Positions 8,247 to 42,953 of a DNA stretch of 42,953 bases are shown piece after piece. The notes beneath the pieces are model-generated. The model had not been told where the DNA came from. It made no database searches and was given only the letters and a program-made list of their open reading frames with translations. A program made the translations under genes and the position numbers. The DNA comes from Bacteroidales bacterium (GTDB lineage Bacteria; Bacteroidota; Bacteroidia; Bacteroidales; UBA932): the NCBI GenBank assembly GCA_024401855.1, contig JAKSKH010000019.1, positions 1-42,953 of the forward strand, in the 5' to 3' direction. Every line of letters starts with the position of its first letter. Positions within the stretch are counted from its first letter, which is position 1.

Positions 8247-8855
8247 CTAAAAATTGAAGTTATAGCCTATTCCCAGAATATGTTCGGAAGATCTCGATGC
8301 AAAAGTGTAGTAGAGATAATACAAGTCTATCTCGCTGTATTTCCCGAATGAATAGAGCACCCCTGCGTAATGCCTGGTTTTCTCCCATTTCTTCCAGGTG
8401 AACACCTCCATTGCCAGATAAGGAGTCAGAGGCAGCTTGGGAATGGCACACTTCACATTGAGATAACTTCGGAGCACGCTGGAACCGCCGGAAGTCTGAG
8501 GCGTGCAGGCATACATATACCTTTCGCGCCAGGACACGCTCAGGTCTCCCGACTTGACGGTTGCGGTTACATTTCCATAGAACCTGTGCAGGTAGCGGTC
8601 CGGCTCCTTGTAATAATCGTATGCGGCATCCAGTTTGAGCCATGGAAGAACCTTGTATCCTCCGGTCGCCCTTACATACCAGCAGTCGAATTTCGAGAAA
8701 TCCTGCATCTGATCATATTCAAAATACAGGGAAGTATAGAATTTCCCGAATGACTTGTATCCGTAAAGGCTCAGCCACATCCCGGACTCATCCTTTTCCT
8801 GGGATGCGGCGAGCATCGGAAACAGAAGCATGACAAGAACCGCGAGTCTCTTCAT
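8247..8855 (-). CDS. DUF2490-type outer-membrane beta-barrel protein
   Basis: A 202-residue protein with signal peptide (MKRLAVLVMLLFPMLAASQ) followed by alternating aromatic beta strands (WLSLYGYKSFGKFYTSLYFEY, WYVRATGGYKVLPWLKLDAAYDYY) and a terminal GIGYNFNF ending in an aromatic residue, as in small outer-membrane barrels. The pattern fits DUF2490. Its role is unknown. It is the last gene of the long minus-strand operon, 6 bp after the GH3 gene, so it may help pass or sense the degradation products, but nothing in the sequence shows this. Confidence 0.75.
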   Translation of the reverse strand: MKRLAVLVMLLFPMLAASQEKDESGMWLSLYGYKSFGKFYTSLYFEYDQMQDFSKFDCWYVRATGGYKVLPWLKLDAAYDYYKEPDRYLHRFYGNVTATVKSGDLSVSWRERYMYACTPQTSGGSSVLRSYLNVKCAIPKLPLTPYLAMEVFTWKKWEKTRHYAGVLYSFGKYSEIDLYYLYYTFASRSSEHILGIGYNFNF

Positions 8856-8861
8856 GCCCGG

Positions 8862-11051
8862 TTAAATGTTGATATCGATTGACTTGAGGTCCTCATCCCT
8901 TGAGGATCCGCCATAAAGGATACGGTATGCTCCCTTTCTCACGGAAAGTTCATCTATTGAAGCATCGTAGCTCTCGAATGCCCCGTCTCCCAGTTCAATG
9001 GAGACATTGACAGTCTTGCCGGCAGGAATGTTCACCCTGCTGAATCCCTTGAGAGTCTTGATGGGAGCCCCGGGGTTGTCGAGAGACTTTATGTAAACCT
9101 GAACAACCTCGTCTCCGTCAACCGAACCGGTATTCGTAACAGGAACAGTCACGGTATGTCTTGACCCTTTGACCTTGGCCTCTCCATACTCGAAGGTTGT
9201 ATAGCTCAGGCCATAACCGAAGGCGTAAAGAGGCTCTCCGCGGAAATAACGGTAAGTCTTTCCTTCCATATTGTAATCAAGGAAGTCGGGGAGCTGTGAG
9301 GTTGATGCATAGAATGTAACGGGAAGTCTTCCTGCGGGATTGTATTTACCGAAAAGCACATCTGCCACGGCAAGACCGCCGGCCTGTCCGCCGTACCAGG
9401 CCTGGACAAGGGCGTCATACTGCGATTCGATTCCGCCGAACGCGATGGCGGAGCCGGAGCAGTTCACGACAACTACAGGCTTTCCGGTAGCATGCATGGC
9501 CTTCACAAGGTCCTCCTGAATGGAAGGAAGTTCAATCTTTGTCCTGTCCCCACCGAAGAAGCCCTCGTAAGGAACATCCATCTCCTCTCCCTCGAGATGA
9601 GCAGTGAGTCCGGTGACTACAACAATTACATCAGAATCAGAAACCTGTGCGGAGAGCTCGTTGAAATCCGCTACACCCTCCGTTTCTTCAGTAACGTGGT
9701 TGCAGGCCTTGCAATAGAAGACTTCGGCATCGCCAGCGGCGTCCCTGATGGCAGCAACTATTGACTTCTCATGCTCGGGAATGGGCTGTCCGTTATAATT
9801 TCCGAGCTGCATGTATGCATTGTCGGCATTGGGACCTACTACTGCTATCTTCTTGATTCCCGCCTTGAAAGGAAGCACGCCCTCATTCTTGAGGAGGACT
9901 ATTGACTCCCGGGCCGCCTTTCTTGCAAGGGCGGCATGTTCCTCGCTGCTGATGTCTGCGGCACCGAGATTCTTCCAGGGATCAATCTCCTCCGGATCGT
10001 ACATTCCGAGCATGATTCTTTCCCTCATGGCCCTGCGGAAGCAGACGTTGAGATCTTCTTCCGTCATCAATCCCCTTGCGATAGCAAGCGGGATGAATTC
10101 CTGGTAGTTGTCTCCGCACTCCACGTCACAGCCTGCCTTGATGGCGGCGGCACATGCGGACTCCGCATCCGGATGAGTCATATGACGGCCCTCAACATAG
10201 AAATTGTCTATGGCTCCGCAATCGGAAACGACCATTCCGTCATAGTTCCATTTGCCACGGAGAATATCAACGAGAAGACGCTCGCTTCCGTTGCAGGGCT
10301 CACCCTCGTAACGGTTGTAGGCGCCCATCACCTGCTGAACGTGTGCGTCCTTGACAAGCATGCGGAAAGCGGGAAGATATGTTTCCCAGAGGTCGCGCTG
10401 CGATACGCTTACGTCAAATCTGTGCCTTGAAGACTCGGGGCCGCTGTGAACGGCGTAGTGCTTTGCGCAGGCAATGGTCTTATAATGCTCGGGGTCGTCG
10501 CCCTGCATACCGCGGACCGTGGCTGATCCCATTACGCCTGCGAGGAAGGGATCCTCTCCGCAGGTTTCCTGTCCGCGTCCCCACCTCGGATCACGGAAGA
10601 TGTTGATGTTGGGGCACCAGAAAGAAAGGCCGTGCCACCAGGGATCACTGTTGGCTTTGTCTCTGCCGAACTCATTGTGTTCGGTTGTATTCCACCTTGC
10701 CCTGGCTTCATCGGATACTGCCGTGAAGACCTCGAGTTGCTGCGCCTCGTCGAACGTTGCAGCAAGACCTATCGACTGGGGGAAAACGGTCACACCGTCT
10801 CCTGTAATGCCATGGCAGCCTTCAGACCACCAGTTATACGCCGCAATCCCAAGACTGTCGATGGAAATTGAGCCGCTCTGAAGGAGGCCTGCTTTCTGCT
10901 CTATTGTAAGGATGGATACCATATCCTCAACCCTCTCGTCAACGGAGAGAGAAGGGTTACGGAAAGGATGGTCATAAACTGCCTCGTTCTTTGGAGCACA
11001 GGCTGTGGCGGCAAAAGCTACTGCAAAAGCCAGAATAGTTATTTGTTTCAT
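8862..11051 (-). CDS. GH3 beta-glycosidase lipoprotein (beta-glucosidase/xylosidase type)
   Basis: A 729-residue glycoside hydrolase family 3 enzyme. The lipobox is ATAC with Cys18. The TIM-barrel domain (about 30-350) shows WWSEGCHG, DPRWGRGQETCGEDP, AKHYAVHSGPE and the nucleophile motif VVSDCGAI (Asp277). The alpha/beta sandwich domain follows (ESIVLLKNEGVLPF, VVVNCSGSAIA), with a fibronectin-like C-terminal domain (YFRGEPLYAFGYGLSYTTFEY and onward). The overall pattern is that of retaining beta-xylosidases or beta-glucosidases of Bacteroidales. It would trim a beta-linked terminal sugar at the cell surface or in the periplasm. It is the tenth gene of the operon starting with GH92, and only 3 bp separate it from DUF1573. 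The exact sugar cannot be told. Confidence 0.93.
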   Translation of the reverse strand: MKQITILAFAVAFAATACAPKNEAVYDHPFRNPSLSVDERVEDMVSILTIEQKAGLLQSGSISIDSLGIAAYNWWSEGCHGITGDGVTVFPQSIGLAATFDEAQQLEVFTAVSDEARARWNTTEHNEFGRDKANSDPWWHGLSFWCPNINIFRDPRWGRGQETCGEDPFLAGVMGSATVRGMQGDDPEHYKTIACAKHYAVHSGPESSRHRFDVSVSQRDLWETYLPAFRMLVKDAHVQQVMGAYNRYEGEPCNGSERLLVDILRGKWNYDGMVVSDCGAIDNFYVEGRHMTHPDAESACAAAIKAGCDVECGDNYQEFIPLAIARGLMTEEDLNVCFRRAMRERIMLGMYDPEEIDPWKNLGAADISSEEHAALARKAARESIVLLKNEGVLPFKAGIKKIAVVGPNADNAYMQLGNYNGQPIPEHEKSIVAAIRDAAGDAEVFYCKACNHVTEETEGVADFNELSAQVSDSDVIVVVTGLTAHLEGEEMDVPYEGFFGGDRTKIELPSIQEDLVKAMHATGKPVVVVNCSGSAIAFGGIESQYDALVQAWYGGQAGGLAVADVLFGKYNPAGRLPVTFYASTSQLPDFLDYNMEGKTYRYFRGEPLYAFGYGLSYTTFEYGEAKVKGSRHTVTVPVTNTGSVDGDEVVQVYIKSLDNPGAPIKTLKGFSRVNIPAGKTVNVSIELGDGAFESYDASIDELSVRKGAYRILYGGSSRDEDLKSIDINI

Positions 11052-11054
11052 AAA

Positions 11055-11423
11055 TTACTGATTATAGTCGGTATTGGTATATATTACATCCAGCGTAAGA
11101 GTGAAACGCCGGACAGCTTTCTCTCCGGGTCCGTAAAGGACAACGCTGTGCTCGACCTTCCCACGATAGCCTCCCGGCTTTACCGAGACCTTCATATCCA
11201 CGGTCTCGCCCGCCTTTATGACTGTCCGGCCGATATAGGCGTTAACACAGGAACAGCTGCACACAAGTCCGGCAATGCGGAAATCCTCATCGGAACCGTT
11301 GGATATCCTGAAAGTATGGAAGACTGTTCCGGCATTGCCGTCAACCTTCCCGAAATCCCATTCCACGGAATCGAAGGAAAGCGGGGCCAGAAGGGTCAGC
11401 AGAACACATAGAAAAGCCGGCAT
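11055..11423 (-). CDS. DUF1573 domain protein
   Basis: A 122-residue exported protein: a short hydrophobic N-terminus (MPAFLCVLLTLLAPLSF) and then a single DUF1573 immunoglobulin-like domain, recognisable by EWDFGKVDGNAGTVFHTFRI.N, the cysteine-rich VCSCSCVNA, and ETVDMKVSVKPGGYRGKV. Bacteroidales carry many such small domains with unknown roles. The start ATG shares one base with the stop of the PLC-like gene (TGATG), so the two are likely translationally coupled. It is followed closely by GH3. Confidence 0.85.
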   Translation of the reverse strand: MPAFLCVLLTLLAPLSFDSVEWDFGKVDGNAGTVFHTFRISNGSDEDFRIAGLVCSCSCVNAYIGRTVIKAGETVDMKVSVKPGGYRGKVEHSVVLYGPGEKAVRRFTLTLDVIYTNTDYNQ

Positions 11424-12406
11424 CAGTTGAAGTTTCTGTCCACTATCTTCTTCAGGATTACATCCCCCTCGTAATCGGGATCTCCGGAATAATCGATGAG
11501 CACCATTCCGAGAGAGCCTTCGGACGCTTCCGCATCCAGAGCCTTGTTGACAAGAGGCATCACACCGGCGGCGAACTCGTGCGGCCTTGGATGGCCTTCA
11601 CGGTTGAAATAGCCGGAAACATGGTTGACGCTCCATCTCTCGCCCGAACCGGCATTCGCGAAAGCCGAGGCATGCCTTACGAAAGATGCTGTCTTTCCTT
11701 CAGCGAAGGGACCGTCGTTCTCCCATTCATAATCATCCTGAACATCAATGGCCACCTGCTCCGCACAATGCCTTCCGGTAAGAAGGCTTCCTTCATCCCA
11801 GTCCGATGCAAGAGCTCCGCACCAGAATCTGTTTTCCAGATAATTCCTGTTTATGAAAAGGATCTTGCCGCGGAGGTCGGCAACGGTAAGGCCGGGGCGG
11901 AAAGAATCAAGGGCAACGCCAAGGTCATAATATTTCTTCTCCAATGCGCTCAGGCTGTCTTTTGCGGCAGAAAGCACCTCCGGAGTGAAATCATTGTTCT
12001 CGATTCTGAAAACAATCACCGCGAATTCGGAAGGATGCGCGGTCAGCATTCCGGCAATGGCGCCCACGGCTTCGTCAGCGCTTACTCCGGCATCTACGAC
12101 ACTGTGCATGATTCTGAACTCATCTGTGCTGCCGGGGTTGAATCCGGGACGAAGGTCAAAGCATCTGACTCCCTTGAGGAACTGGTCTCCGAGCATGAAA
12201 GTCTGGGTGCCGACGAACTCGCGCGCAGGACTGTCGAGAGGTATTCCTGCAGTTGCGGCATCGTGCGAACCGGGCATGGAGACCTTGCATGCCGACATAT
12301 CGTCCGGAAGGTCTTTCATCCACGATTCCATAGACCTTTCATTTGTACAGGACAATGTGAGAAAGGCCGGAAATATCAGGGAAAATAAAAGTTTTCTCAT
12401 AATCAT
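11423..12406 (-). CDS. PI-PLC-like phosphodiesterase lipoprotein
   Basis: A 327-residue lipoprotein (lipobox TLSC, Cys20) with a phosphatidylinositol-specific phospholipase C X-domain. The first catalytic His is in SMPGSHDAAT (His48), followed by KGVRCFDLRP (Arg81, Asp84) and the second His in RIMHSVV (His101). VIVFRIEN and a C-terminal LGMVLIDY strand complete the barrel. Bacterial members cleave phosphatidylinositol or GPI-type anchors by cyclisation. The overlap ATGA with the nucleoside hydrolase gene and TGATG with DUF1573 places it firmly within one operon. The context of alpha-mannosidase and phosphatases makes a GPI-like or phosphoglycolipid substrate attractive, but this is inference. 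ATG 12400 is an alternative start. Confidence 0.85.
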   Translation of the reverse strand: MIMRKLLFSLIFPAFLTLSCTNERSMESWMKDLPDDMSACKVSMPGSHDAATAGIPLDSPAREFVGTQTFMLGDQFLKGVRCFDLRPGFNPGSTDEFRIMHSVVDAGVSADEAVGAIAGMLTAHPSEFAVIVFRIENNDFTPEVLSAAKDSLSALEKKYYDLGVALDSFRPGLTVADLRGKILFINRNYLENRFWCGALASDWDEGSLLTGRHCAEQVAIDVQDDYEWENDGPFAEGKTASFVRHASAFANAGSGERWSVNHVSGYFNREGHPRPHEFAAGVMPLVNKALDAEASEGSLGMVLIDYSGDPDYEGDVILKKIVDRNFN

Positions 12407-13443
12407 TCTCCAAAACAGGCCGGTTTCCTTGTAAGGTTGTTTACAAGATAATCTCTCAGGACTGAAGCCTGTTCATCGGTAACGGTGACATATCTGTGCT
12501 TCCCGTCAGGACAAGGTGAGAAGCGCGTAACGCCCTCGTCGTCCACATCGATGACACCGGGTTCGGTGGTGGTGAAAAGTGTTTCTCCCTCAACCGCATA
12601 GATTACTGCGGTGGGGTCGAAGGCCCAGTTGTCATAAGGCATTCCGCTGTACCTGATATACGCCTCCTTGAGAGGATGTGCGGATACCCATCCGAAATCA
12701 TTCTCTATGCTGGAAGAAGGATATCTTACAGCTTCACCTATCTCCCAGGGCAGGCATACTATATCGCAAGGCCACTCCGTAAAGAGTTTCCTGGACGCGG
12801 GAATGTTTATCATCACGTTGAACTCAGGGTAGTCATCCTTGAACCTGCCCGCCATGATTGAAAGCATCCTGACCTTCTTCTGAATGAGTTCCTTTCCGGT
12901 GAGAGGTGAAATCTCATCTGCAGGAGTGTCGAGAAGACGCGCAAGGTTTGTAAGGAAGCCCACGGATACTACTACGACAGAATTGTCCGGCTGGGATGCA
13001 AGAAGCTTCCTGTAAAGGATATGAGCGTCGGGCAGGGACTCGTAATCAATACCGGTGGTGGCAAACAAGGGAGTGCCGTCCTCTTTGACAAGAGTGCTTA
13101 CCTGTCCGGCATAATTCTCTGAGGGGTCACTTCCGTCGGGACCGTTGTTGCGGGCGCGTCCGAGCTGAATGTCGGGATGACCGTAGAAAGTGTTCATGAT
13201 GTCGACGAACCTGACGGTGTTCTCCCCTTCCTTGTTGAGACAGATTCCGAGAAGATTGATTTTAGCATCGTCGATATAAAGATTGAGGAGGGCAAGGGCC
13301 TCGGTGTCATCTATGTCATTACCTATGTCGGTATCGAAGATGATATTGACGGGAGTGTCGCACTGCTTCTCCTCCGCCTGTCCGCAGGAAACAAATGAAA
13401 ATGCCGCGAGTGCCAGGCCAAACAGTATGTTATTGAATTTCAT
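12403..13443 (-). CDS. Nucleoside hydrolase lipoprotein (IUNH family)
   Basis: A 346-residue inosine-uridine-preferring nucleoside hydrolase that would split ribonucleosides into base and ribose. The calcium-binding signature is FDTDIGNDIDDTEAL (Asp37, Asp39, Asn42, Asp45, Asp46), and the C-terminal metal-ligand motif is NWAFDPTAVIYA. A lipobox (FVSC, Cys20) shows it is exported and lipid-anchored, unlike the cytosolic enzymes. The next two upstream genes are a sugar permease and ribokinase, which together resemble the nucleoside and ribose part of the Bacteroides rus system. The stop overlaps the PLC start by 4 bp. Confidence 0.9.
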   Translation of the reverse strand: MKFNNILFGLALAAFSFVSCGQAEEKQCDTPVNIIFDTDIGNDIDDTEALALLNLYIDDAKINLLGICLNKEGENTVRFVDIMNTFYGHPDIQLGRARNNGPDGSDPSENYAGQVSTLVKEDGTPLFATTGIDYESLPDAHILYRKLLASQPDNSVVVVSVGFLTNLARLLDTPADEISPLTGKELIQKKVRMLSIMAGRFKDDYPEFNVMINIPASRKLFTEWPCDIVCLPWEIGEAVRYPSSSIENDFGWVSAHPLKEAYIRYSGMPYDNWAFDPTAVIYAVEGETLFTTTEPGVIDVDDEGVTRFSPCPDGKHRYVTVTDEQASVLRDYLVNNLTRKPACFGE

Positions 13444-13462
13444 GGTTGTTGGATAATTAAGA

Positions 13463-14482
13463 CTAAACGTTTCCTGATACGATTATGAGGGCAAGACCAG
13501 CAATGAAGAAAGTGAACATCACGGCAAGCAGGGCCGGAACACCTTTGCCCGCTCCCTTGAATTCCTTCCAGATGAACACTCCCCAGATGGCCGCAATCAT
13601 GGGCGCGCCCTGTCCGAGCGCATAACTTACGGATGCTCCCGCCTTCCCTGCACAAATGTAGTTGAGCGCGGTACCGAGGCACCAGATGGCGCCTCCGAGC
13701 ATTCCGACGATATGGGTTTTTGCATCTCCATCCCTGAAGTACTGGCTGTAGCTGACAGGTCCGCCCACGAAGGGTTTCTTCATGACTATGGTGTTGATGA
13801 CAGTATTGCTGAGGAAAACACCTATGGAGAATACTACAATTGCAGTATATGGGGTGCATTTCCCGGCTGCCGGATTGGCGAAGTCCGCAAGGTCGACTCC
13901 GTTATAGACGAGAGCGGAGAAGAAGGACATGATAAGACCGGCGAGAACGGCAAGGATGATTCCCTTGCGGTTCTGTCCGGCATCGCGGACCTCCGTAGAT
14001 ACCTTGCCGGACGCAATGCCGTTGCAGACAATGGCAATAACGATAAGGGCCACACCGATGAACAGGAGGGAGAGATTCTCGTCGCCCTTGGGGTGCAGAA
14101 GGATATTGTTGAACACGCCTACCACCAGCGCGAGACCGACTCCGAGCGGGAAGGCAACCGACATTCCCGCAATTGAAATGGATGCGGAAAGAAGTATGTT
14201 CGAAACGTTGAAGACCACCGCTCCCAACAGAATCCAACCTATGCTGGCCCATGATGCCTGGGCGATGTCGGCAAGGAAAGGACGTCCTTCGGATCCGATG
14301 CTTCCGAAAGTGAATGCAAGAATGAGTGAGAATATCACCATTCCTATCACGTAGTCCCAATAAAACAATTCGTAGCGCCAGCTCTTGGCCGCAAGTTTCT
14401 GGGTATTTCCCCAGGATCCCCAGCAGAGCATCGTGACAAAGCAGAGAATGACTGCGAGGGCGTAACTGTTGACAATAAACAT
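13463..14482 (-). CDS. GRP/RhaT-like sugar permease, probably for ribose
   Basis: A 339-residue integral inner-membrane protein with about ten hydrophobic segments, beginning MFIVNSYALAVILCFVTMLCWGSW. It belongs to the drug/metabolite transporter superfamily, glucose-ribose porter branch (CWGSWGNTQKL, SFPLGVGLAL-like segment, KAGASVSYALGQGAPMIAAIWGVFIWKEF). It sits 10 bp after ribokinase and 19 bp before a nucleoside hydrolase, so ribose is the likely substrate, as for RusT of Bacteroides. The frame is open upstream to 14689, but that part overlaps ribokinase in antisense frame and lacks membrane character, so the start is ATG 14482. Confidence 0.85.
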   Translation of the reverse strand: MFIVNSYALAVILCFVTMLCWGSWGNTQKLAAKSWRYELFYWDYVIGMVIFSLILAFTFGSIGSEGRPFLADIAQASWASIGWILLGAVVFNVSNILLSASISIAGMSVAFPLGVGLALVVGVFNNILLHPKGDENLSLLFIGVALIVIAIVCNGIASGKVSTEVRDAGQNRKGIILAVLAGLIMSFFSALVYNGVDLADFANPAAGKCTPYTAIVVFSIGVFLSNTVINTIVMKKPFVGGPVSYSQYFRDGDAKTHIVGMLGGAIWCLGTALNYICAGKAGASVSYALGQGAPMIAAIWGVFIWKEFKGAGKGVPALLAVMFTFFIAGLALIIVSGNV

Positions 14483-14492
14483 AATTATTAAA

Positions 14493-15380
14493 TTAAATAT
14501 CTTTACGGTAAGGTATGGATTCCTGCGCTCCCAGATGCTGCACCGTGACGGCGCTGGCACGGGTGGCGAACTCCACGGCTGAACGCAGGCTCTCCCCTTC
14601 TGCAAGGGCAACGCACAACGCTCCGCAGAAAGTATCGCCTGCAGCTGTTGCATCAACGGCCTTGACCTTGCAGGCGGGAACCATCTCAAGGGCGCTTCCG
14701 TCCCAGATGGCGGCGCCCCTGCTTCCCAGAGTCATGACTACCTTGTCCACGCCGGATTGGCAAAGCTTGCGCATTACGGCCTCAACGTCGTCGCTGATGC
14801 CCGTGAACAGAGCCGCCTCCGTCTGGTTGGGAGTCATGATGGACACGTTCCTGAATATCTCCGGAGGGAGCTCACAGGCCGGAGCCGGATTCAGAATCAC
14901 ACATGCGCCGGCATCGTGGGCTATCTGTGCCGCCTTCGCTACGGCATCGACCGGAATTTCGAGCTGAAGAATGACGTAATCGGACGATTCTATCACGGAA
15001 CGCACGCTCTCGATATCATCGACGGTGACGTCTCCGTTGGCACCTGGGGCAACGGATATCACATTCTCCCCCTCATCGTCAACAAGAATAAGCGCCACGC
15101 CGGAAGGCTTCTCCGAAAAGAAGGTGTACCGGGTGTCTATCCCGTCCTTTGCATACCCTGCAAGCGCCTTCTCTCCGAGCATGTCGCGCCCCACCTTGCA
15201 GATAAAGGTGACGTCACCTCCCAACCGGGCGGCGGCGACAGCCTGGTTGGCTCCCTTGCCTCCGGGTCCCATCTTGAAATCGCCTCCGAGAATGGTCTCG
15301 CCCGGGACGGGAATCCTGGGCGACTTGATGACCATATCTGTATTGCTGCTGCCTATGACAGTTATCTTCTTCACATCCAT
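14493..15380 (-). CDS. rbsK: Ribokinase (PfkB family)
   Basis: A 295-residue cytosolic kinase that phosphorylates ribose to ribose 5-phosphate. PfkB signature 1 is GPGGKGANQAVAAARLGGDV near residues 38-57, and signature 2 is DATAAGDTFCGAL with catalytic Asp249. The sugar-binding N-terminus is GSSNTDMVIK, and NPAPA, TPNQTEA and MTLGSRGA are as in RbsK. The start codon overlaps the stop of the GH123-like gene (TGATG). Together with the downstream permease and nucleoside hydrolase it forms a ribose-salvage module embedded in a glycan-degradation operon. Confidence 0.93.
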   Translation of the reverse strand: MDVKKITVIGSSNTDMVIKSPRIPVPGETILGGDFKMGPGGKGANQAVAAARLGGDVTFICKVGRDMLGEKALAGYAKDGIDTRYTFFSEKPSGVALILVDDEGENVISVAPGANGDVTVDDIESVRSVIESSDYVILQLEIPVDAVAKAAQIAHDAGACVILNPAPACELPPEIFRNVSIMTPNQTEAALFTGISDDVEAVMRKLCQSGVDKVVMTLGSRGAAIWDGSALEMVPACKVKAVDATAAGDTFCGALCVALAEGESLRSAVEFATRASAVTVQHLGAQESIPYRKDI

Positions 15381-17008: not shown

Positions 17009-17017
17009 AACCCTGTC

Positions 17018-17908: not shown

Positions 17909-17921
17909 ATCGGAAATAGTG

Positions 17922-22315: not shown

Positions 22316-22341
22316 ATAGAGAAGTTAATTGAATAATTTAA

Positions 22342-22376
22342 CAAATATAACACGTTTTGCATTAACGGACAACAAA
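22342..22376 (-). promoter_or_regulatory. Promoter of the GH92-to-DUF2490 operon
   Basis: On the minus strand TTTG (22376-22373) is followed after 23 bases by TATATTTG (22349-22342), a full -7 match. The GH92 ATG at 22315 lies 26 bases downstream. The TTTG is inside the very end of the preceding gene, so the operon may also receive read-through. Confidence 0.55.
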
Positions 22377-25148: not shown

Positions 25149-25231
25149 ATCAATAAAAATTTATAACCAACTGCAATTTAAATTAAAAGTCACAAATCAG
25201 CAAGTGCTCTGACTCGGTCGGACAAAGCAAT

Positions 25232-27163: not shown

Positions 27164-27178
27164 ATTGTAACTCCTTTT

Positions 27179-30328: not shown

Positions 30329-30560
30329 AAAATAAATAATAAAGTTAGTAATATAATGAATTGGTATTCATTTGTCTTAGTTCCATTGTAACCGTAACTG
30401 AAAGTACGCAAAAACCCCACAACCAACAAACAGATTAACAGTAAAAAATCAATAAATCGGTTGTTCAGTTACACGTCCCTACAGTAAAACAGTCGCGGTT
30501 AGTTGGGCAAAAATGCTAATTTTCTCTGATATATCCAACAAAATGAGAGAAAAATTAATA
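30329..30560. promoter_or_regulatory. Upstream region of susCD
   Basis: This 232-bp gap between the ROK kinase stop and the susC start is the longest in the minus-strand locus. It is AT-rich and contains an 8-bp inverted repeat (GTAACTGA at 30394-30401 and TCAGTTAC at 30465-30472). No perfect TAnnTTTG is present on the minus strand, so the promoter may be weak, activator-dependent or sigma-factor dependent. No regulator gene is nearby. Confidence 0.35.
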
Positions 30561-32992: not shown

Positions 32993-32995
32993 ATA

Positions 32996-34924: not shown

Positions 34925-34945
34925 AATATTTAGTGTTATATCCTG

Positions 34946-34980
34946 CAAATATAAGAAAATTACTCGTGTTTTACACCAAA
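34946..34980 (-). promoter_or_regulatory. Promoter of the phosphatase fusion-GH63-ROK genes
   Basis: On the minus strand TTTG (34980-34977), 23 bases, then TATATTTG (34953-34946), a full -7 match; the ATG is at 34924. Spacing and -7 sequence are the same as at the GH92 promoter (22342-22376). The -33 part lies in the last codons of the TolB-like gene. Confidence 0.55.
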
Positions 34981-36387: not shown

Positions 36388-38096
36388 CTGTACAAACTGT
36401 AGAACCAATAAGTATCTCCGTAATACTTGTGCATATATGACTCGGATCTCCGGGCCTGTATGTCCTTGATGAAAGATTGCAGACGGCTGACATTCTCTTC
36501 CGACACCATGTCCGGAGCATCCTCCAGCATCGCTCCGGAAGAAATAAGGTTGAGAAGGACAGCTTCCTGGAAGTGTTTCGGCACAGGCACTTTACGACCG
36601 GGATCAAAATGTTTCATGAACGACTCCAAATCCTTGTTGAGAAGGTCCCAGGCAAGCAGACAGTCATACGCACGGCTGTTCTCCGGTTTCTCTTCAAGGA
36701 TGATTTCCAGAACGGAGTCTATCCTTTTGTCGCTGAACATGTAATCTTTCCCATTGCTGCGGATGCTCCCTTTTTCCAGGAGGTAATCGCAGGCGAAGGG
36801 CGCGGAGTCCATGTCGCCGAGCCTTTCCCTTGCCCATTGTCTGTAGAACAAGGTGTTGCAGAGACTGTTCAGGTAGCGTCTGGCCACATCATAGTTTCCA
36901 TTGACTATGTTCGTTTCTGCGAGCCTCTTGTATATGCGTGCACTTTTCTGGAAATCGGGAATGGCTTCCTGAGCCTCAAACATATAATTCTGGCAGGCAT
37001 TGACCATTCCGACCCTCCAGAACAGTTCGGCAACCGGAATTGGTGAGGTATATGAAATCTTGAACGGCGGGAAAAGTCCGGCAATGCCGTTCTGATAATA
37101 ATTGAACATATCATCAGGCATCCTCCCCTCCTCCATCAGAGCCAGATTCAGGCAGCATACGGAAAAGGGCTTGTCGGCCGGATGGACATTCTGCCTTGAG
37201 ATGATGCCCTTCCAGTCTTCTGATCTGACAAGACGGTCACACAGCATTATTTCTTCATTGGAAAACTCCGCATTCTTCATCACCGCCGTTACAAAGGACA
37301 GGACAACCGCCACGAAGGACACCGCACAGGCGGCATACATCTTCCTCTCTTTCACGGCTTGCAGTGCAGGAATGGAGAATATTGCCTGATACAGCACGAA
37401 GGACAGAGCTGAAAGCCACAGGACAACAGGTACATCCGTCTGATAACGGTAATAATGTATGCCGGCGAACAGACGCCAAAGAGGAAAATGAAATAAAAGC
37501 GAAGATGCAAAAGGACATGCAAGCAGCACGAGCAATGCGGCAAGTACGGTATAAATCCTCTTCCAGTCTCCGGCCGCAATGACAAACAATACGGAAAGCG
37601 GTCCGCAGAGGAAATACAGGACAGGAACGGCGGCAACATAAGCTGCGCTCCCGAGCATTTTACCACGGACGGCGCGGACTGCGACAGATGCAGTCAGAAC
37701 CAGCACGAAAGCGACGGCGGCTCCGACAAGAGCCTTATCGTCAAGGAAGAACAGAAGCAGGATACATGCAGGAACAAGACTCCAGATGCGGGACAGCAGG
37801 CTTGCAGTCCCGGAGAGCTTGAAAGAGAGAGCCTGGACGGCATAAAGCAGCAGCGCGATTATGGCCGCCCCGGCCCACGGACAGATGAAGAACTGTGTCA
37901 GAAACCTTCCGCACCAGTCGGAAAAGCCTCCGGGGACAGAAGCGACATCTGCAAAATACCCCCATGTCCATTCAAAAAGCTGGTACTGTTCCTGATAACA
38001 CAAATGTGAAGGATACGCCAGACCCAGAAAAAGAAAAGTGGACAAAAAAAGCAAAAGGGATGGAATCCTGCAAATAATCCTGTCAGAATGAAGCAT
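36384..38096 (-). CDS. DUF6057-type polytopic membrane protein with TPR-like C-terminus
   Basis: A 570-residue inner-membrane protein. About nine or ten hydrophobic segments fill residues 10-270 (SLLLFLSTFLFLGLAYP, AAIIALLLYAVQAL, ACILLLFFLDDKALVGAAVAFVLVL, VLWLSALSFVLYQAIF, ACAVSFVAVVLSFVTAV). The remaining ~300 residues are soluble and helical, with TPR-like arrangement (ARIYKRLAETNIVNGNYDVARRYLNSL, LEEKPENSRAYDCLLAWDLL). The pattern fits DUF6057, known from Bacteroidetes and without function. It is coupled to the haem-motif lipoprotein downstream and lies 15 bp after the GH43 gene. Confidence 0.75.
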   Translation of the reverse strand: MLHSDRIICRIPSLLLFLSTFLFLGLAYPSHLCYQEQYQLFEWTWGYFADVASVPGGFSDWCGRFLTQFFICPWAGAAIIALLLYAVQALSFKLSGTASLLSRIWSLVPACILLLFFLDDKALVGAAVAFVLVLTASVAVRAVRGKMLGSAAYVAAVPVLYFLCGPLSVLFVIAAGDWKRIYTVLAALLVLLACPFASSLLFHFPLWRLFAGIHYYRYQTDVPVVLWLSALSFVLYQAIFSIPALQAVKERKMYAACAVSFVAVVLSFVTAVMKNAEFSNEEIMLCDRLVRSEDWKGIISRQNVHPADKPFSVCCLNLALMEEGRMPDDMFNYYQNGIAGLFPPFKISYTSPIPVAELFWRVGMVNACQNYMFEAQEAIPDFQKSARIYKRLAETNIVNGNYDVARRYLNSLCNTLFYRQWARERLGDMDSAPFACDYLLEKGSIRSNGKDYMFSDKRIDSVLEIILEEKPENSRAYDCLLAWDLLNKDLESFMKHFDPGRKVPVPKHFQEAVLLNLISSGAMLEDAPDMVSEENVSRLQSFIKDIQARRSESYMHKYYGDTYWFYSLYR

Positions 38097-38111
38097 ACGC
38101 TAAAGGTTAAT

Positions 38112-39056
38112 TCAATCAGGGTCAACTATCCTCAGGCTGTCGCCGGTGTCTTCAAGCGTGAACAGCCTGGCCCTCTCCATGCCGCCTCCGTTAGGAGAAT
38201 GAAGGACAAGGCGGAGATTCCCGTCCAGGTCGGTGAAGATCATGGCATGGCCGCCATCCTTTTTGAAAAGCGGCTCGCTCTGCTGACGCCACGGGCCCGA
38301 GATCTTGCCCGTGAGGGACTCGGCTACGCACTCTGCGTAGCCGTCCGGGCCGAAGCTTGCCCATATCATGAGCAGTTTCCCCGTTCTGGTACGATACATG
38401 AAGCATCCGTCGGTAACGTAGGACTCCCCCGGCTCGGCAACGCAGCACGCTGATCCGTTGAACATTCTTACGGGACTGCCTATGGCTTCCGCAAGATCTT
38501 TGTCGAGCCTGACATATTCGACGGTACCATCCACTATCTGCACCCATTCGTGACAGAAGACCATATAAGGCTGGTTGTCCTCCACATACAGAGTGCCGTC
38601 AAGAGCCATGTAATCAATCGGTGTCTGAGGCATGTCGGATGTCGCCGTGAAAGGCCCGGTAGGAGAATCCGAACGGAAAATCTGAGTTCCCCTGTAAATG
38701 TAGTCCGGCCATCCTTCACGGCTCATCTTCCATTTGGTCATTTCATTTATAGTGGCAAACAGATAGTATCCGTCTTTGTACTTGTGAACTTCCGGCGCCC
38801 ATACATGACCTCTGGACCAGTTCCCCTCGGGAAGGGTCATGACCTGGGTCTTCTCTGTCCAGTTCTTCAGATCCTTGCTTGTATATACCGCCACTCCCCC
38901 TGCATCGCCCACCGAAGAAGATGCGTACATGTAGTAGGTATTGTTGTCAACAAGGATAAAAGGATCTCTGATATGGATATCCTGAAGCGTCAGATTCTGT
39001 CCCTGAAGGCAGATTGACAAAAGCAGAAAAACTGAAAGAGAGACTATCTTTCTCAT
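38112..39056 (-). CDS. GH43-family glycosidase
   Basis: A 314-residue exported five-bladed beta-propeller enzyme with signal peptide ending LQGQ. The catalytic base is Asp31 in IHIRDPFIL; SVGDAGGVAVYTSKDLKNW, VWAPEVHKYKDGYYLFAT, ALDGTLYVEDNQPYMVFCHEW, VTDGCFMYRTRTGKLLMIWASF and KKDGGHAMIF follow as in GH43 alpha-L-arabinofuranosidase / beta-xylosidase / beta-galactosidase type enzymes. The subfamily and the acid Glu are not assigned with confidence. It lies between GH97 (18 bp upstream) and the DUF6057 gene (15 bp downstream), so it is co-transcribed. Confidence 0.9.
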   Translation of the reverse strand: MRKIVSLSVFLLLSICLQGQNLTLQDIHIRDPFILVDNNTYYMYASSSVGDAGGVAVYTSKDLKNWTEKTQVMTLPEGNWSRGHVWAPEVHKYKDGYYLFATINEMTKWKMSREGWPDYIYRGTQIFRSDSPTGPFTATSDMPQTPIDYMALDGTLYVEDNQPYMVFCHEWVQIVDGTVEYVRLDKDLAEAIGSPVRMFNGSACCVAEPGESYVTDGCFMYRTRTGKLLMIWASFGPDGYAECVAESLTGKISGPWRQQSEPLFKKDGGHAMIFTDLDGNLRLVLHSPNGGGMERARLFTLEDTGDSLRIVDPD

Positions 39057-39074
39057 ATTACTACAGCATTGAAA

Positions 39075-41066
39075 TTACTTCCTGGTTATAATGGCGACAT
39101 AACCTCCGCCGGATGCCAGATGAGCCTTGATTGTCTTGCAGGAAGGAAGTTCGCAGGTAACTTTCTTGTAGTCTCTTGCGGCCCTGTCTGCATTGACGCC
39201 GTCCTTATAAACGGTAATATTGTAGTTGCCTTCGCCGAGGAAATCAAGTTTGAGTTCGACGTCGCGGCTGTCCCAGTTGTTAAGTATTCCAACGTACCAG
39301 TCATTCCCCTTGCGGCGCGCCACGGCAATGTACTCGGCCACCTTTCCGTCAAGTGCGATTGTCTCGTCCCAGACTTCGGGAACCCCGGCTATATAGCTGG
39401 TGCATTCAGGCTCATTGATGTAATTGGACGGAGAATCACAGAGCATGTTGAGAGGAGAAGAGAACACAACGTATTCCGCAAGCTGGTGGCAACGTGTACC
39501 CTGGCTCATTCCCTCATCCCAGACGGAGCGGTAATTGTCCCTGTTGGCATTGCGCATTGCACCCTGTGTATAATCTGCAGGACCGGCGAAGAAACGGATG
39601 TAAGGAAGAGTCACGTCATATGTAACCTGATCGCAATCCTGGTTCCACTTCATGTTCTCAAGACCGAAGATTCCCTCGTAATTGATGATGTTGGGATGGG
39701 TTCTGTTGAGTCCGGTAGGCTTGTAAGTGCCGTGGAAGTCAAGCATCATATGATATTTCTCTGCAATTTCGGCGGCCTCGCGGTGGAAATCCACTGCAAC
39801 CTGGTCGCAGGTATCCATGAAGTCAACCTTGAAGCCCTTGATTCCCATCTCCGAATAAAGTTTGCAGGCTTTTTCAATATCGTTTGCAAAAGGACGGTAG
39901 CCGGCCCAGAGAATGATGCCGACATTTCTTTCCTTTCCGTATGCGATGAGTTCCTCAAGATTAATTTCAGGCACTACGGTAAACAGATCCTCGAACCCGA
40001 CAGACCATCCTTCATCCATGATTATGTACTGAACGCCGAATTTGGATGCGAAATCGATATAGTACTTATATGTGTCATTGTTGATTCCGGACTTGAAGTC
40101 AACTCCGTATATGTTCCAGTCGTTCCACCAGTCCCAGGCAACCTTTCCGGGCTTGACCCAGCTGTAATCCGATTTGGGATCCGCAGGTGTTGCAAGACGG
40201 TAGATCATGTCATTGTCCGTCATTTCCCAGTCATGCCTTGAAATGGCGACAACCCTCCAGGGGAAAGAGCATCCCGCATTGCACCTGGCGATATAGTCAG
40301 CTGTGCTCTCGACGTAGAAATTACGTCCGTCACCGTCTCCTATGCCCCTCTTCGTAGGGTACTTGGGAAAACGTCCGGTAAGGGTCCTGCTTCCGTCACC
40401 GTTATAGAGGAACATTCCGGGATAGCTCAAAAGATCGGATTCGCTGATGCAGAGCTTGACTCCGTTTTCAGCCTCAACCATGAGAGGAAGGAATGCGAGA
40501 TGGGTTTTGTCCCAGTCTGCAATGCTCTCATGCTTGTAAGTGTTCTCGAAGGAATTGTGGAACTGCTCCTCAAGAGCACCCTCGTCATTCTGGTTTACAT
40601 AAGGGATATATGCATTCCAGTTATCGGGGAAGGCAAATTCCACTTTCTCATCCCTTACTTCGAAATTCTTTTTTGACAGACTGACGAAACGGTATGCGAC
40701 ACCGTCATCGTATGCCCTGAAAAGGACCTTGAATGCCTTGTAGGTAAGTTCGAGCTGATTGTAGTTGTCGTTGATCTCCGATTTTCTGTAAATCTGAGCC
40801 TTGATTACATTCCGGACGCTGGTCTTCACGGCCTTGCGGAGGGTCTCACTGCCTCCGTAAACGGTGCCGTCATTGAGTGTAATGGCGATTTCTGAAGGGG
40901 CAAGGACCTGATTGCCGTCAACGGAAATGCTGTAATTCAGACATTTGTCCGTGTTCACGGTCACAGCAATCTTGCCGTCAGGAGATGTGAGGGAGTGCAG
41001 TTTGGGAGCCGCTGTTGCGGAAATGGACATAACAGCCAGAACTGTAGCGAGAAGAACTTTTTTCAT
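39075..41066 (-). CDS. GH97 retaining-type alpha-galactosidase
   Basis: A 663-residue exported glycosidase of family 97 (signal peptide ending SATAA). N-terminal beta-sandwich (about 20-290: LTSPDGKIAVTVN, YRFVSLSKKNFEV), TIM barrel (about 300-560: KPGKVAWDWWNDWNIYGVDF, YIIMDEGWS, ILWAGYRPF) and a C-terminal beta domain. The motif GFKVDFMDTCDQ has Asp415 where retaining GH97 enzymes have their nucleophile, as in BtGal97b of B. thetaiotaomicron, and not the inverting SusB glucosidase arrangement; this points to alpha-galactosidase. It lies 24 bp after the PAP-like gene and 18 bp before GH43. Confidence 0.93.
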   Translation of the reverse strand: MKKVLLATVLAVMSISATAAPKLHSLTSPDGKIAVTVNTDKCLNYSISVDGNQVLAPSEIAITLNDGTVYGGSETLRKAVKTSVRNVIKAQIYRKSEINDNYNQLELTYKAFKVLFRAYDDGVAYRFVSLSKKNFEVRDEKVEFAFPDNWNAYIPYVNQNDEGALEEQFHNSFENTYKHESIADWDKTHLAFLPLMVEAENGVKLCISESDLLSYPGMFLYNGDGSRTLTGRFPKYPTKRGIGDGDGRNFYVESTADYIARCNAGCSFPWRVVAISRHDWEMTDNDMIYRLATPADPKSDYSWVKPGKVAWDWWNDWNIYGVDFKSGINNDTYKYYIDFASKFGVQYIIMDEGWSVGFEDLFTVVPEINLEELIAYGKERNVGIILWAGYRPFANDIEKACKLYSEMGIKGFKVDFMDTCDQVAVDFHREAAEIAEKYHMMLDFHGTYKPTGLNRTHPNIINYEGIFGLENMKWNQDCDQVTYDVTLPYIRFFAGPADYTQGAMRNANRDNYRSVWDEGMSQGTRCHQLAEYVVFSSPLNMLCDSPSNYINEPECTSYIAGVPEVWDETIALDGKVAEYIAVARRKGNDWYVGILNNWDSRDVELKLDFLGEGNYNITVYKDGVNADRAARDYKKVTCELPSCKTIKAHLASGGGYVAIITRK

Positions 41067-41090
41067 TTCTTGATAGTTTTATGTTAATAA

Positions 41091-42251
41091 TTACAAATTC
41101 ATTGAATTGATTACCCTGCCGTTTACATCGACGGTCCTGATACTTATGCTCGAAGCAGTTGCTTCAAAATCAAGCCTTTCATTACAGCCGTTCGTCACAA
41201 TGGTGAAATCATTGCCGAATTCGCCGGGTTTTGCCACGATATATTGATGATGATGGCCGGAAAGCATGAGCTTGACGCCAGCCTTGTTCAGGACGGGTGT
41301 GAAATTCTTCGCAATCCAATGCTGGGAATACCATGCACTTGGACCGTCGAATGCGGGAATATGCATTATCACAACCTTCTGCGGGGCATTCTTGAACTCC
41401 GGGGTTTCCACAACTTTCTTAAGCCACTCCAGCTCTTCTGCCCTGTATTGGTCGAAGGCGGCCTGGTCTGAATACTCGGGATCGGAGTCCGGCTTGTCCT
41501 CTCCCGCATCGAGTACAAGGAAGGCCACGGGCCCCTGCCTGAAGGAGAAGTAGAATTCACCGGTATTGGAAGGGAACGCCTCCCGCGCCAGATACCACTC
41601 GGCACCCCTTCCTTCGTGATTTCCTCTTGCATAAATGACGGGGAAATCCGCGGCGATCTCACTTATGGGACCGAAGGTATGCCTGATGAGGGTGTCCTGG
41701 GCATTGGAGAATGAAATGATATCTCCGTTCAGGACGATAAAATCGGCTTTTTTCTTATCCATACCGTCCATAAGCTTTGAATACTTCTCATCATCGAAGT
41801 GCATGTCGTTCACCATGGGGAAGCAGCAGGTCTGAGCATTGTAATCCAGGGTTTTCACCTTGTGGACTCCGGTTCCCGCCCTTTCGGCACCGTATGCGAT
41901 GGCATAGGGGTTGCTGTCGTCCGTAACAGGTTTGCCCACAATCCTGTACTGATACGTTGTGGCCTTGTCAAGTCCGTTTATGGTAACTCTGTGGAAGGTA
42001 CCATAGTATTTCCTTCCGCTGATGACTTCGAAATATCTGGTATGGTTGTCCTGCTGATACCAGGTGGTTCCCTCATCCCTGGACATCTCCACCCAGGAGA
42101 GTGTCTTCTCCTCAGTGGTCCAGAGAATGGTGACGGAATTCTCAGTCACGTTCTGAATCCAGGGTCCATAGACAATTTCCATCGGGTCCGTACCGGCATT
42201 GACGGATACGGACACGGCCATCATAATGAAGAATAGAACAAATCTTTTCAT
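41091..42251 (-). CDS. Purple-acid-phosphatase-like metallophosphoesterase
   Basis: A 386-residue exported protein (signal peptide ending VSVNA). An N-terminal fibronectin-like domain (about 25-110: VYGPWIQNVTENSVTILWTT, TTYQYRIVG) precedes a calcineurin-like domain with NDMHFDD (Asp149, His151), LNGDIISF (Asp177), ARGNHEGRG (Asn211, His212), IMHIPAFDG (His297) and LSGHHHQYIV (His333-His335 region). This layout is that of purple acid phosphatases. It would cleave phosphomonoesters outside the cell. It lies 9 bp after the partial gene at the right edge and 24 bp before GH97, within one operon. Confidence 0.88.
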   Translation of the reverse strand: MKRFVLFFIMMAVSVSVNAGTDPMEIVYGPWIQNVTENSVTILWTTEEKTLSWVEMSRDEGTTWYQQDNHTRYFEVISGRKYYGTFHRVTINGLDKATTYQYRIVGKPVTDDSNPYAIAYGAERAGTGVHKVKTLDYNAQTCCFPMVNDMHFDDEKYSKLMDGMDKKKADFIVLNGDIISFSNAQDTLIRHTFGPISEIAADFPVIYARGNHEGRGAEWYLAREAFPSNTGEFYFSFRQGPVAFLVLDAGEDKPDSDPEYSDQAAFDQYRAEELEWLKKVVETPEFKNAPQKVVIMHIPAFDGPSAWYSQHWIAKNFTPVLNKAGVKLMLSGHHHQYIVAKPGEFGNDFTIVTNGCNERLDFEATASSISIRTVDVNGRVINSMNL

Positions 42252-42260
42252 TTTATCCCG

Positions 42261-42953
42261 TTATTTCAATTCCAAGGTCTTCTCTGAAAGGTGATATGGA
42301 TAAGTGCTGATGAAAACCTTGATATCGAGGTCGTCATAGCCTTCCTTCTCTTCCACGCTCATAACGACAGCGTCAAACGACGCGCCCTTCATATCGGCTG
42401 AAAGGGGAAGGTAATAGGTGTAGTTGCCGTCTGTCGTTGCAGCGCGGCATTCCCAGGCATTCACCCAATACGCCGGAGCACGGTCAGGACATCCCGTCGG
42501 TTTCCCGTTTATCCTGAAGCTTGCAAAAGCGCCGTCCTGCCCGCACTTACCGTTCACCGCCACACAAAGATATGAGTTTTGCGGAATTTCGTCAAGAGTA
42601 AAGCTTGCAGTCCATGTCTTCTGAGGGTGTGTGTACCACCCGTCATATTCATGGAACTGGTTGTTGGCCTTCCATAAACTGCGGTCAACGGCCTTTCCGT
42701 CCCTGTATCCTGTAAGTTCCCTGACTCTGAGCGGAGACTGGCTGAAACGCAGATACCTGAACTCTCCGCAATCCGAGCAGTCAAGCGTGCAGTGAGGTCC
42801 GGGAATCAGGAAGGTATGCTTCTCCCAGTTCTGCAGGTCGCTGGAAACATAGAAGAAAGCCCCTTCGAATATCTTGTAAGGCTGCATGGAATAGTAGTCG
42901 AAACTGTCCAGAGTCAGGCTGTCAAGCTGCATCACGGCACCCATGTCAAGCAT
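42261..42953 (-). CDS. C-terminal part of an exported multidomain protein (cut by window edge)
   Basis: At least 230 residues of a protein whose start lies beyond the right edge; the ATG at the very edge is probably internal. The visible part begins with a discoidin-like (F5/8 type C) segment (MLDMGAVMQLDSLTLDSFDYY, FFYVSSDLQNWEKHTF, FRYLRFSQSP) and continues into a jelly-roll carbohydrate-binding-like region (YDGWYTHPQKTWTASFTLDEI, LCVAVNGKCGQDGAFASFRINGK), ending in LSEKTLELK. These look like accessory modules at the C-terminus of a glycoside hydrolase or sulfatase-like enzyme. It is 9 bp before the PAP-like gene, so part of the same operon. Confidence 0.6.
   Translation of the reverse strand: MLDMGAVMQLDSLTLDSFDYYSMQPYKIFEGAFFYVSSDLQNWEKHTFLIPGPHCTLDCSDCGEFRYLRFSQSPLRVRELTGYRDGKAVDRSLWKANNQFHEYDGWYTHPQKTWTASFTLDEIPQNSYLCVAVNGKCGQDGAFASFRINGKPTGCPDRAPAYWVNAWECRAATTDGNYTYYLPLSADMKGASFDAVVMSVEEKEGYDDLDIKVFISTYPYHLSEKTLELK

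Follow-up and report, generated by a model that had tools for sequence, protein, structure and literature searches.

What does a Bacteroidales bacterium of the UBA932 lineage feed on with a glycan-utilisation locus that encodes nearly as many phosphoesterases as glycosidases? We examined this in the whole 42,953-nucleotide stretch of contig JAKSKH010000019.1 (the window), for which a first-pass annotation had proposed a system degrading GPI anchors or phosphoglycans. Our observations concern which genes are present, the families to which they belong, which active-site residues are conserved and how far the set recurs in relatives.

Gene content of the locus

Positions 8247-42953 form a co-directional SusC/SusD locus on the minus strand, running off the contig end. 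Thirty window ORFs were scanned against Pfam (cut-off E 0.01); export signals and lipoproteins were called by eye only. Pfam identifies a tandem SusC/SusD pair and six glycoside hydrolases (GHs); the five phosphoesterases lie among these. The CAZymes are on the same strand and closely packed, the majority of intergenic gaps being <50 bp, with larger gaps upstream of the 22362 gene (137 bp) and of SusC (232 bp). The features are:

6463..7731, minus: MINPP-type histidine phosphatase (His_Phos_2), outside the operon (PDB MINPP 4fdt, E 4e-34; 7r5y, E 3.9e-44)
8247..8855, minus: DUF2490 protein (Pfam; homologs adjoin the L153 and L155 PULs)
8862..11051, minus: GH3 (Pfam)
11055..11423, minus: DUF1573 protein (Pfam)
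11423..12406, minus: PI-PLC, putative lipoprotein (PDB phmmer, invariant active-site columns, model, Foldseek)
12403..13443, minus: nucleoside-hydrolase-like protein, putative lipoprotein (PF01156, 7e-17; DTDxxxDD motif)
13463..14482, minus: ureide-permease/RhaT-type permease, RusT-like by context (Pfam; NCBIfam below cut-off; family conservation)
14493..15380, minus: ribokinase (TIGR02152, 354 bits against a cut-off of 299.65)
15380..17008, minus: GH123 (Pfam)
17018..17908, minus: EEP phosphatase (PF03372; PDB 4c1r)
17922..19370, minus: PA14-metallophosphoesterase, putative lipoprotein (Pfam PA14 and Metallophos)
19370..22315, minus: GH92 alpha-mannosidase with CHB_HEX and PA14 domains (Pfam; 6f8z alpha-1,2-mannosidase, E 2.4e-159)
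22362..25148, minus: NPCBM protein (Pfam, PDB search; NPCBM the sole Pfam match)
25286..27163, minus: SusD-like (Pfam)
27179..30328, minus: SusC-like TonB-dependent transporter (Pfam)
30561..31385, minus: ROK-family sugar kinase (Pfam; NCBIfam below cut-offs)
31382..32992, minus: GH63/MGH1-like glycosidase (Pfam; PDB)
32996..34924, minus: alkaline phosphatase (ALP) with N-terminal HSHNDY domain, possibly GDPD/PLC superfamily (Pfam, PDB, orthologs)
34960..36387, minus: PD40 beta-propeller protein (Pfam)
36384..38096, minus: DUF6057 protein (Pfam)
38112..39056, minus: GH43 (Pfam)
39075..41066, minus: GH97 (Pfam)
41091..42251, minus: purple-acid-phosphatase-like metallophosphoesterase (Pfam Metallophos and purple-acid-phosphatase N domain)
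42261..42953, minus: C-terminal part of a protein with a 785-aa homolog in L011, cut by the contig end (no Pfam match)

An opposite-strand gene separates the MINPP-type gene from the operon; the first-pass annotation had overlooked the MINPP-type gene, as well as the precedent of the Flavobacterium phosphate utilisation systems (PUS) discussed below. The five phosphoesterases it had named are borne out by Pfam, PDB, Foldseek and motif comparisons, and inspection found in all five the active-site motifs usual in working enzymes. Its view that the locus is unusually rich in such enzymes also holds: two of the 15 Metallophos matches in the 2.03 Mb genome fall within these 34.7 kb (~0.26 expected), as does one of the genome's two EEP matches. 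SusD (PF07980) has three matches in the genome, one of them here. Among the glycosidases, GH92, GH123, GH97 and GH63 were named correctly and GH3 and GH43 were missed, while a 'GH36-like' protein finds no support, 22362-25148 matching NPCBM only and 42261-42953 nothing in Pfam.

The PI-PLC and its distribution

The 11423 protein has no Pfam match at E 0.01 (PI-PLC-X falls below the cut-off, at E 0.048); phmmer against PDB sequences matches it to PI-PLC 1gym at E 1.3e-11. Its model (pLDDT 91.5) contains the PI-PLC X-type barrel, and its best 24 Foldseek matches are all bacterial PI-PLCs (E 2.5e-18 to 1.5e-16). Residues H48, D49, R86, H101, R187, D224 and Y226 are invariant across 29 aligned PI-PLC sequences, the window's included; H101 is the equivalent of H82, from which it is shifted by one column when the two sequences are aligned, and R134 that of K115. 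Given the catalytic and inositol-pocket roles of these residues (the His pair, Arg, Asp and the pocket), alignment and model indicate that the protein is likely a true phosphatidylinositol phospholipase C. It has fold, catalytic and inositol-pocket residues in common with the PI-PLCs of B. cereus, S. aureus and Listeria, at ~20% identity in the fold alignment, and unlike them sits inside a glycan PUL. Bacterial PI-PLCs cleave GPI anchors (PMC10216265).

The locus might be a horse-gut system dedicated to glycosyl-inositol phospholipids, be they GPI anchors or similar lipids, from ciliates, fungi, plants or the host; we regard this as rather unlikely. PI-PLC would free the anchor, metallophosphoesterases or phosphodiesterases would strip ethanolamine-phosphate (removed in eukaryotes by Ted1/Cdc1/PGAP5), and GH92, GH123 and MINPP would take the mannoses, the beta-GalNAc side chain and the inositol phosphate, respectively. 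No enzyme cleaving GlcN-inositol or an ethanolamine amide was recognised by Pfam in the contig-cut window, in which the 22362 and 42261 proteins are without assigned activity. GH43, GH3 and GH97 point to a glycan that is larger or mixed, and the ribose module described below does not fit a GPI-only target.

PI-PLC is rare: at E 1e-3 it matches in five of the 149 genomes of the family, and at 1e-20 in two of 393 at order level, our genome included in both counts. PUL-linked PI-PLCs split into two separate clades. The second homolog in our genome (L013) lies ~670 bp upstream of a GH92 gene on the same strand, and a divergent PI-PLC in G044/UBA1722 lies between a 42261-protein homolog and GH63; that of G537 is off the PUL contig and that of G080 (L010) is among unrelated genes, far from the G080 PUL genes. 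Plasmid-borne PI-PLCs comprise 11 distant records, with no Bacteroidales among the organisms listed. A SusD-based scan of named genomes gave no match; a PI-PLC alignment scan gave 200 relatives, of which 80 were kept. GH92 is near PI-PLC in 12 of these 80 loci, all within the 50 closest and none in the remaining 30, against 2.1 expected for the 50 closest, to which the background count was confined. The association is weak once loci are clustered (5 clusters against 2.0, P ~0.04; 3/8 with clustering at 40% identity, P 0.11).

Candidatus Minthomonas equi has an in-frame fusion of the PI-PLC ortholog with a MINPP-type phosphatase, itself an ortholog of the 6463 protein (L009:4366-6576); the fusion gene lies ~14 bp behind GH92. 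Other contigs of this genome carry orthologs of the ALP fusion (79%) and of the PA14-metallophosphoesterase (69%).

Phosphatases and glycosidases

The EEP protein is homologous to 4c1r (E 3.1e-46, third of five PDB matches), deposited as a mannosyl-6-phosphatase, and has homologs in the L157, L080, L086, G032, G001 and G129 loci. The nearest PDB matches are alpha-1,2-mannosidases for GH92, which recurs in related loci, and for GH63 a Chaetomium alpha glucosidase (E 7.2e-12) and a mannosyl-oligosaccharide glucosidase (E 6.8e-6). These enzymes favour a phosphomannan-type target, that is, fungal or protist mannans or N-glycans with mannose-6-phosphate or mannosyl-phosphate, processed by GH92 and EEP with PI-PLC as an accessory. 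We nevertheless consider such a target unlikely, as GH76, GH125, GH18 and GH38 are all missing by Pfam from the 30 ORFs scanned in the contig-cut locus, CcMan5 supplies the two weakest of 14 GH92 matches, and PI-PLC and GDPD are left unexplained. The yeast alpha-mannan PULs of Bacteroides thetaiotaomicron likewise combine GH92 with an EEP phosphatase homologous to 4c1r. GH76 endo-mannanase is typical of such PULs, whereas in our locus no GH76 or GH125 was seen up to the contig end and PI-PLC, the ALP fusion, the PA14-metallophosphoesterase, GH63 and GH123 are extra.

We rejected the GH92 motif GNQP as a mark of CcMan5-like phosphomannosidases, since 2wvx and 2wzs, deposited as putative alpha-1,2-mannosidases, also have it. 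GNQP occurs in the GH92 enzymes directly upstream of PI-PLC in L102, L103, L109 and L120 and in those near PI-PLC in L076 and L085; the window enzyme has GNEP.

The 32996 protein carries alkaline phosphatase PF00245 at residues 325-595, behind an N-terminal domain of ~290 residues which, searched alone, gave no useful Pfam match. The corresponding domain of the L080 ortholog matches GDPD_2 at E 7.4e-5, below the cut-off, and by sequence the HSHNDY domain possibly belongs to the GDPD/PLC superfamily. The model of the fusion is poor (pLDDT 62.6), and its 50 best Foldseek matches are alkaline phosphatases only. The PA14-metallophosphoesterase has orthologs in L157 (74%) and G026 C267 (69%). Proteins so labelled by blastp in L080 and L086 were discarded, as the match covers the PA14 part only and Pfam assigns them to type-I phosphodiesterases (PF01663).

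Related loci

The first-pass annotation had proposed looking for the same co-occurrence in other Bacteroidales, and the set does recur in two further genomes whose names point to horse gut: their loci, orthologous in part, hold five and six phosphoesterases, a divergent PI-PLC among them. The L086/L155 PUL contains GH63 (63%), ROK, SusCD, GH92 (71%), a type-I phosphodiesterase, the ALP fusion and PI-PLC, together with GH2, GDPD, GH95, GH92 and EEP (64%); the L080/L153 PUL follows this pattern and adds a Metallophos enzyme and a GH97::GDPD fusion. The contig-cut L157 locus shares SusC-SusD-GH92-PA14 metallophosphoesterase-EEP-GH123.

GDPD in L080 and L086, the weak resemblance of the ALP fusion in L080 to GDPD_2, and GH97 would fit degradation of teichoic or other bacterial glycerophosphate polymers. 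We judge this very improbable: the window itself has no Pfam match to GDPD, and the inositol pocket of PI-PLC and the MINPP fusion would go unexplained.

Across the family, the recurrent core consists of SusCD, GH92, GH63, ROK and the two-domain alkaline phosphatase. Both domains of the ALP fusion are matched in nine other family genomes; in seven of these the fetched stretch also holds GH92, GH63 or both. None of the stretches fetched for the core loci of G001, G129, G032, G041 and G080 contains PI-PLC; at E 1e-3 it has no match anywhere in the first four genomes, and of the five only G080 has one. Absence of PLC-like and phosphatase genes from orthologous loci had been named as evidence that would count against the original proposal. 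The outcome is mixed: the phosphatases are present, but PI-PLC is limited to two orthologous PULs and to two short contigs where it adjoins PUL genes (L009, L011).

A regulator with a sugar-binding-protein-like domain and an AraC HTH (Pfam-typed in L155) occurs in PUL stretches of six genomes and, by its domains, suggests sugar induction. It was not found in the stretches of G129, G032, G026, G044 and G090 or in the window, where no adjacent PUL regulator was found up to the contig end. Such a regulator sits poorly with phosphate scavenging, in which the locus would act in the gut as the Flavobacterium PUS do, cleaving many organophosphates when phosphate is limiting. In the available text of PMC8115612, PUSI has PusCD and a pair of periplasmic phosphodiesterases, of which one is listed as a phosphoinositide PLC and the other as CpdA-like, and the PhoA1 of PUSII carries an extra pf13653 domain, which recalls our ALP fusion. 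Both resemble the locus in placing a SusCD-like pair beside phosphodiesterases (PF16670, PF00149) or PhoA with pf13653. The same text, however, describes PUS loci as phosphate-responsive and contrasts them with CAZyme PULs (PMC8115612), whereas our block holds six Pfam-assigned GHs and a bacterial, 1gym-like PI-PLC, and related loci the sugar-type regulator. Pfam recognised no phoBR, Pst or Pit genes in the window, and scavenging appears decidedly unlikely.

The ribose module

The ribokinase, RusT-like permease and nucleoside-hydrolase-like genes form a three-gene module (12403..15380). The first-pass annotation had raised a 'mixed nucleotide/glycan diet' as an alternative and overlooked this module, which gives that alternative real content: the phosphoesterases would strip nucleotides, and the module would salvage ribose. 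Of 16 stretches around the permease gene elsewhere in the family, 12 hold SusC, 10 a ribokinase and six a nucleoside hydrolase, a set like that of the rus locus BT2803-2809 (PMC12596196). The likeness is one of gene content, our locus having only the three-gene module within a larger PUL; rus, too, combines ribokinase, RusT and a nucleoside hydrolase. It has its own SusC/SusD for ribose or nucleosides, and in the window one SusCD pair was found. PDB searches gave no match for the permease and nothing useful for the nucleoside-hydrolase-like protein, whose motif near the C-terminus seems, by eye, to be without the usual His, a point against such a diet. The L080, L086 and contig-cut L157 PULs, moreover, keep the phosphoesterases, but the module was not found in what was fetched of them, and we hold the mixed diet to be highly unlikely.

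A possible function for the locus

The reading that we favour, though we would put it at somewhat less than an even chance, is a carbon-harvesting PUL-type locus for a phosphodiester-bearing, alpha-mannosylated glycoconjugate, which PI-PLC extends to glycosyl-inositol phospholipids such as GPI. Activities, substrates, order of action, localisation and co-regulation are as we infer them. Phosphate groups that would otherwise block exo-glycosidases would be removed by surface and periplasmic phosphoesterases (the ALP with its possibly GDPD-like domain, EEP, the PA14-metallophosphoesterase and the purple-acid-phosphatase-like enzyme), GH92, GH63 and accessory GHs would trim the glycan, its import would go through SusC/D, and the sugar would be phosphorylated by ROK. 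PI-PLC, added in this organism and some relatives, would cut inositol-phosphate anchors, opening GPI, GIPC and PI-mannosides, after which the MINPP-type phosphatase could dephosphorylate the inositol phosphate.

The phosphoglycan half of the original proposal is thus supported by the phosphoesterase-rich make-up conserved in related loci. A GPI target is plausible from the intact inositol pocket, the recurrent GH92 company and the MINPP::PI-PLC fusion behind GH92, but GPI itself is unproven, as five core loci have no PI-PLC, four of the genomes concerned giving no match to it anywhere, and no inositol-glycan-cleaving enzyme was recognised. Among the papers listed by targeted searches of the open-licence literature, none described such a PUL, which is weak evidence of absence. 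If the favoured reading is true, PULs would extend to phosphorylated and lipid-anchored glycans, and GPI coats on the surfaces of protists and fungi in the gut, or of host cells, would be bacterial food.

The locus and its PI-PLC

The block at 8247-42953, a SusC/SusD-type glycan-utilisation locus (PUL), comprises 23 minus-strand genes and is cut by the contig end at 42953; the assembly (2.03 Mb, 67 contigs, 85% complete) has three SusD matches, and Pfam assigns six glycoside hydrolases (GHs) in the window. From the gene spacing, the block appears to fall into two units: one from 42953 to 30561, the other from SusC (30328) to 8247, separated by a gap of 232 bp. The gene at 2229-4373 encodes a calpain-like (Peptidase_C2) domain and Big_2 repeats.

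Pairwise alignment placed H32, D33, R69, K115, E117, R163, D198 and Y200 of the B. cereus PI-PLC, which we take to be catalytic or inositol-pocket residues, opposite H48, D49, R86, R134, E136, R187, D224 and Y226 of the 11423 PI-PLC, and by eye H101 aligns with the His neighbouring B. cereus H82. Among 29 aligned sequences, the window included (locus L100 was omitted for a stop), H48, D49, R86, H101, R187, D224 and Y226 are invariant, E136 is nearly so and R134 is not. In a structure search, the predicted model (pLDDT 91.5) matched bacterial PI-PLCs far better (TM about 0.7) than GDPDs (E 0.03).

PI-PLC among relatives

PI-PLC homologs were found in five of 149 family genomes at E 1e-3 and in two of 393 order genomes at 1e-20, the window's own genome being included in both counts; from a named-genome collection, 80 of 200 PI-PLC relatives were kept. 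At loci L076 and L085 the match sits in a very long reading frame, of 1260 aa in the former and 1274 aa in the latter. The first-pass annotation had proposed a search of other Bacteroidales for the same co-occurrence of genes: two PULs have PI-PLC together with further phosphoesterases, and four core-locus genomes have no PI-PLC match at all.

These PULs, 2/80 of the PI-PLC loci and partly orthologous to the window, are L080 (Cand. Cryptobacteroides onthequi) and L086 (a horse faeces MAG). Identities to the window in L080 and L086 respectively are 76% and 71% for GH92, 65% and 64% for the EEP protein (17018), 54% and 52% for the alkaline phosphatase (ALP) fusion (32996), and 29% and 31% for PI-PLC. 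Both also have GH63, ROK and SusC/D, with DUF2490 adjoining. Pfam adds GDPD and type-I phosphodiesterase in these PULs and a Metallophos enzyme in L080, thus giving six phosphoesterases in L080 and five in L086; in L080 the GDPD domain is fused to GH97 (L080:13586-16363). L157, from another horse faeces MAG, has the order SusC-SusD-(lipoprotein)-GH92 (73%)-PA14 metallophosphoesterase (74%)-regulator-EEP (78%)-GH123 (62%), reaching near the contig end, and the PI-PLC of that MAG (52%) lies on a separate contig between alpha-fucosidase and alpha-rhamnosidase genes. In L011/L114 (UBA1722), PI-PLC (28%) lies between a 42261-protein homolog and GH63, and GH97 is also present.

Candidatus Minthomonas equi (G026) and Cand. 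Cacconaster scatequi (G080) belong to the same family as the window genome. In the former (L009/L073), GH92 (80%) is followed by MINPP (86%) fused in frame to PI-PLC (64-67%; fusion gene L009:4366-6576, G026:C170), and the fused PI-PLC is without a signal peptide; other contigs carry the ALP fusion (79%) with PD40 and DUF6057, and the PA14 metallophosphoesterase (69%). Also on the fusion contig are a GH116-like fragment and a gene of the phage-integrase family.

In the PI-PLC tree the window, L009 and L074 form one supported clade and L011, L080 and L086 another; two recruitments or an old link may account for this, and the tree does not decide between them.

Core loci and the ALP fusion

Core loci lacking PI-PLC, by genome
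G001: EEP, ROK, GH63, ALP, GH92, SusD, SusC
G129: GH92s, SusCD, EEP, ROK, GH63, ALP
G080 (Cand. Cacconaster scatequi): SusD, SusC, ROK, GH63, ALP; on a separate contig GH92, GH3 and a second SusCD
G032: ROK, GH63, EEP, GH92, ALP, SusD, SusC
G041: GH92, ALP, GH63

The G001 locus further encodes a protein with a weak, below-cut-off resemblance to AP-superfamily phosphodiesterases. The ALP query matches 14 of 149 family genomes, own included, and the matches reach into both domains in nine of the 13 others (G026 is contig-cut; G044 is partial, in two pieces). GH92 and/or GH63 occurs in the fetched stretch of seven of these nine; the contig-cut G090 stretch has SusCD only, and that of G107 has neither GH92 nor GH63. 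As the fetched stretches are unequal in length, gene absences are weak evidence. In G079 and G134 the query matched the phosphatase half alone. G014 and G144 carry the N-terminal domain by itself beside an opposite-strand GH92, with the phosphatase half located elsewhere; the ALP fusion therefore joins two separable enzymes.

GH92 near PI-PLC

GH92 flanks 12 of the 80 PI-PLC loci, all within the first 50 and none in the last 30; for the first 50, GH92 counts give an expectation of 2.1 (P = 6e-7, assuming independence). When PI-PLCs were clustered at 50% and 60%, GH92 was found in 5/22 and 5/32 clusters (expected about 2.0, P = 0.04), and at 40% in 3/8 (P = 0.11); after clustering the association is suggestive only. 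The own genome has a second, larger PI-PLC homolog (L013:6825-8663, C9; the match spans only 65 residues), followed by one small ORF and a same-strand 1104-aa GH92 (9331-12645). At L102, L103, L109 and L120, in gut Bacteroidales MAGs mostly from ruminants, PI-PLC comes directly after a GH92, about 14-264 bp downstream; the GH92 of L102, the only one searched, is 2wvx-like.

The ribose module

A rus-like module of ribokinase, permease and nucleoside hydrolase lies inside the PUL (12403-15380). Of the 149 family genomes, 30 (the window's own among them) have a match to the permease; around it, in 16 fetched stretches, SusC-like genes (12/16), ribokinase (10/16) and nucleoside hydrolase (6/16) recur, surroundings which resemble in gene content the ribose-scavenging locus rus as described in PMC12596196. 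The module was not found in the L080 and L086 PUL stretches and thus looks like an addition in the window PUL. GH97 and a MINPP homolog (30%) lie close to a rus-like locus at L184.

Carbon or phosphate, and the likely target

The nearest precedent we found is the phosphate utilisation system (PUS) of Flavobacterium, whose loci show that SusCD loci can serve phosphate (PMC8115612). A homolog of the regulator at L155 (the L086 PUL) (Peripla_BP_3 + AraC by Pfam, the L155 protein alone being scanned) occurs in six of 33 stretches tested (genomes G549, G543, G041, G537, G080 and G001), and the window and the stretches from G129, G032, G026, G044 and G090 showed none. The CAZymes in the window and the regulator in six genomes favour carbon rather than phosphate as what a window-type locus serves.

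As to the substrate, PI-PLC, MINPP and GDPD are suggestive of inositol phospholipids and GH92 of alpha-mannose. According to PMC10216265, the GPI core has an ethanolamine-phosphate bridge and three mannoses, in some species also GalNAc side branches, and is cleaved by bacterial PI-PLCs; Ted1/Cdc1/PGAP5 are GPI side-chain phosphodiesterases. The Paramecium surface is described in PMC12113882 as wholly covered by GPI proteins, and we conjecture that ciliates are a source of GPI in the horse gut. A locus aimed at GPI alone is at odds with the wide range of GHs, the missing steps and the patchiness of PI-PLC among relatives, and GPI-type lipids thus seem an unlikely target. For these reasons we prefer, tentatively and at somewhat short of even odds, a phosphorylated alpha-mannosyl glycoconjugate as what this locus may degrade.
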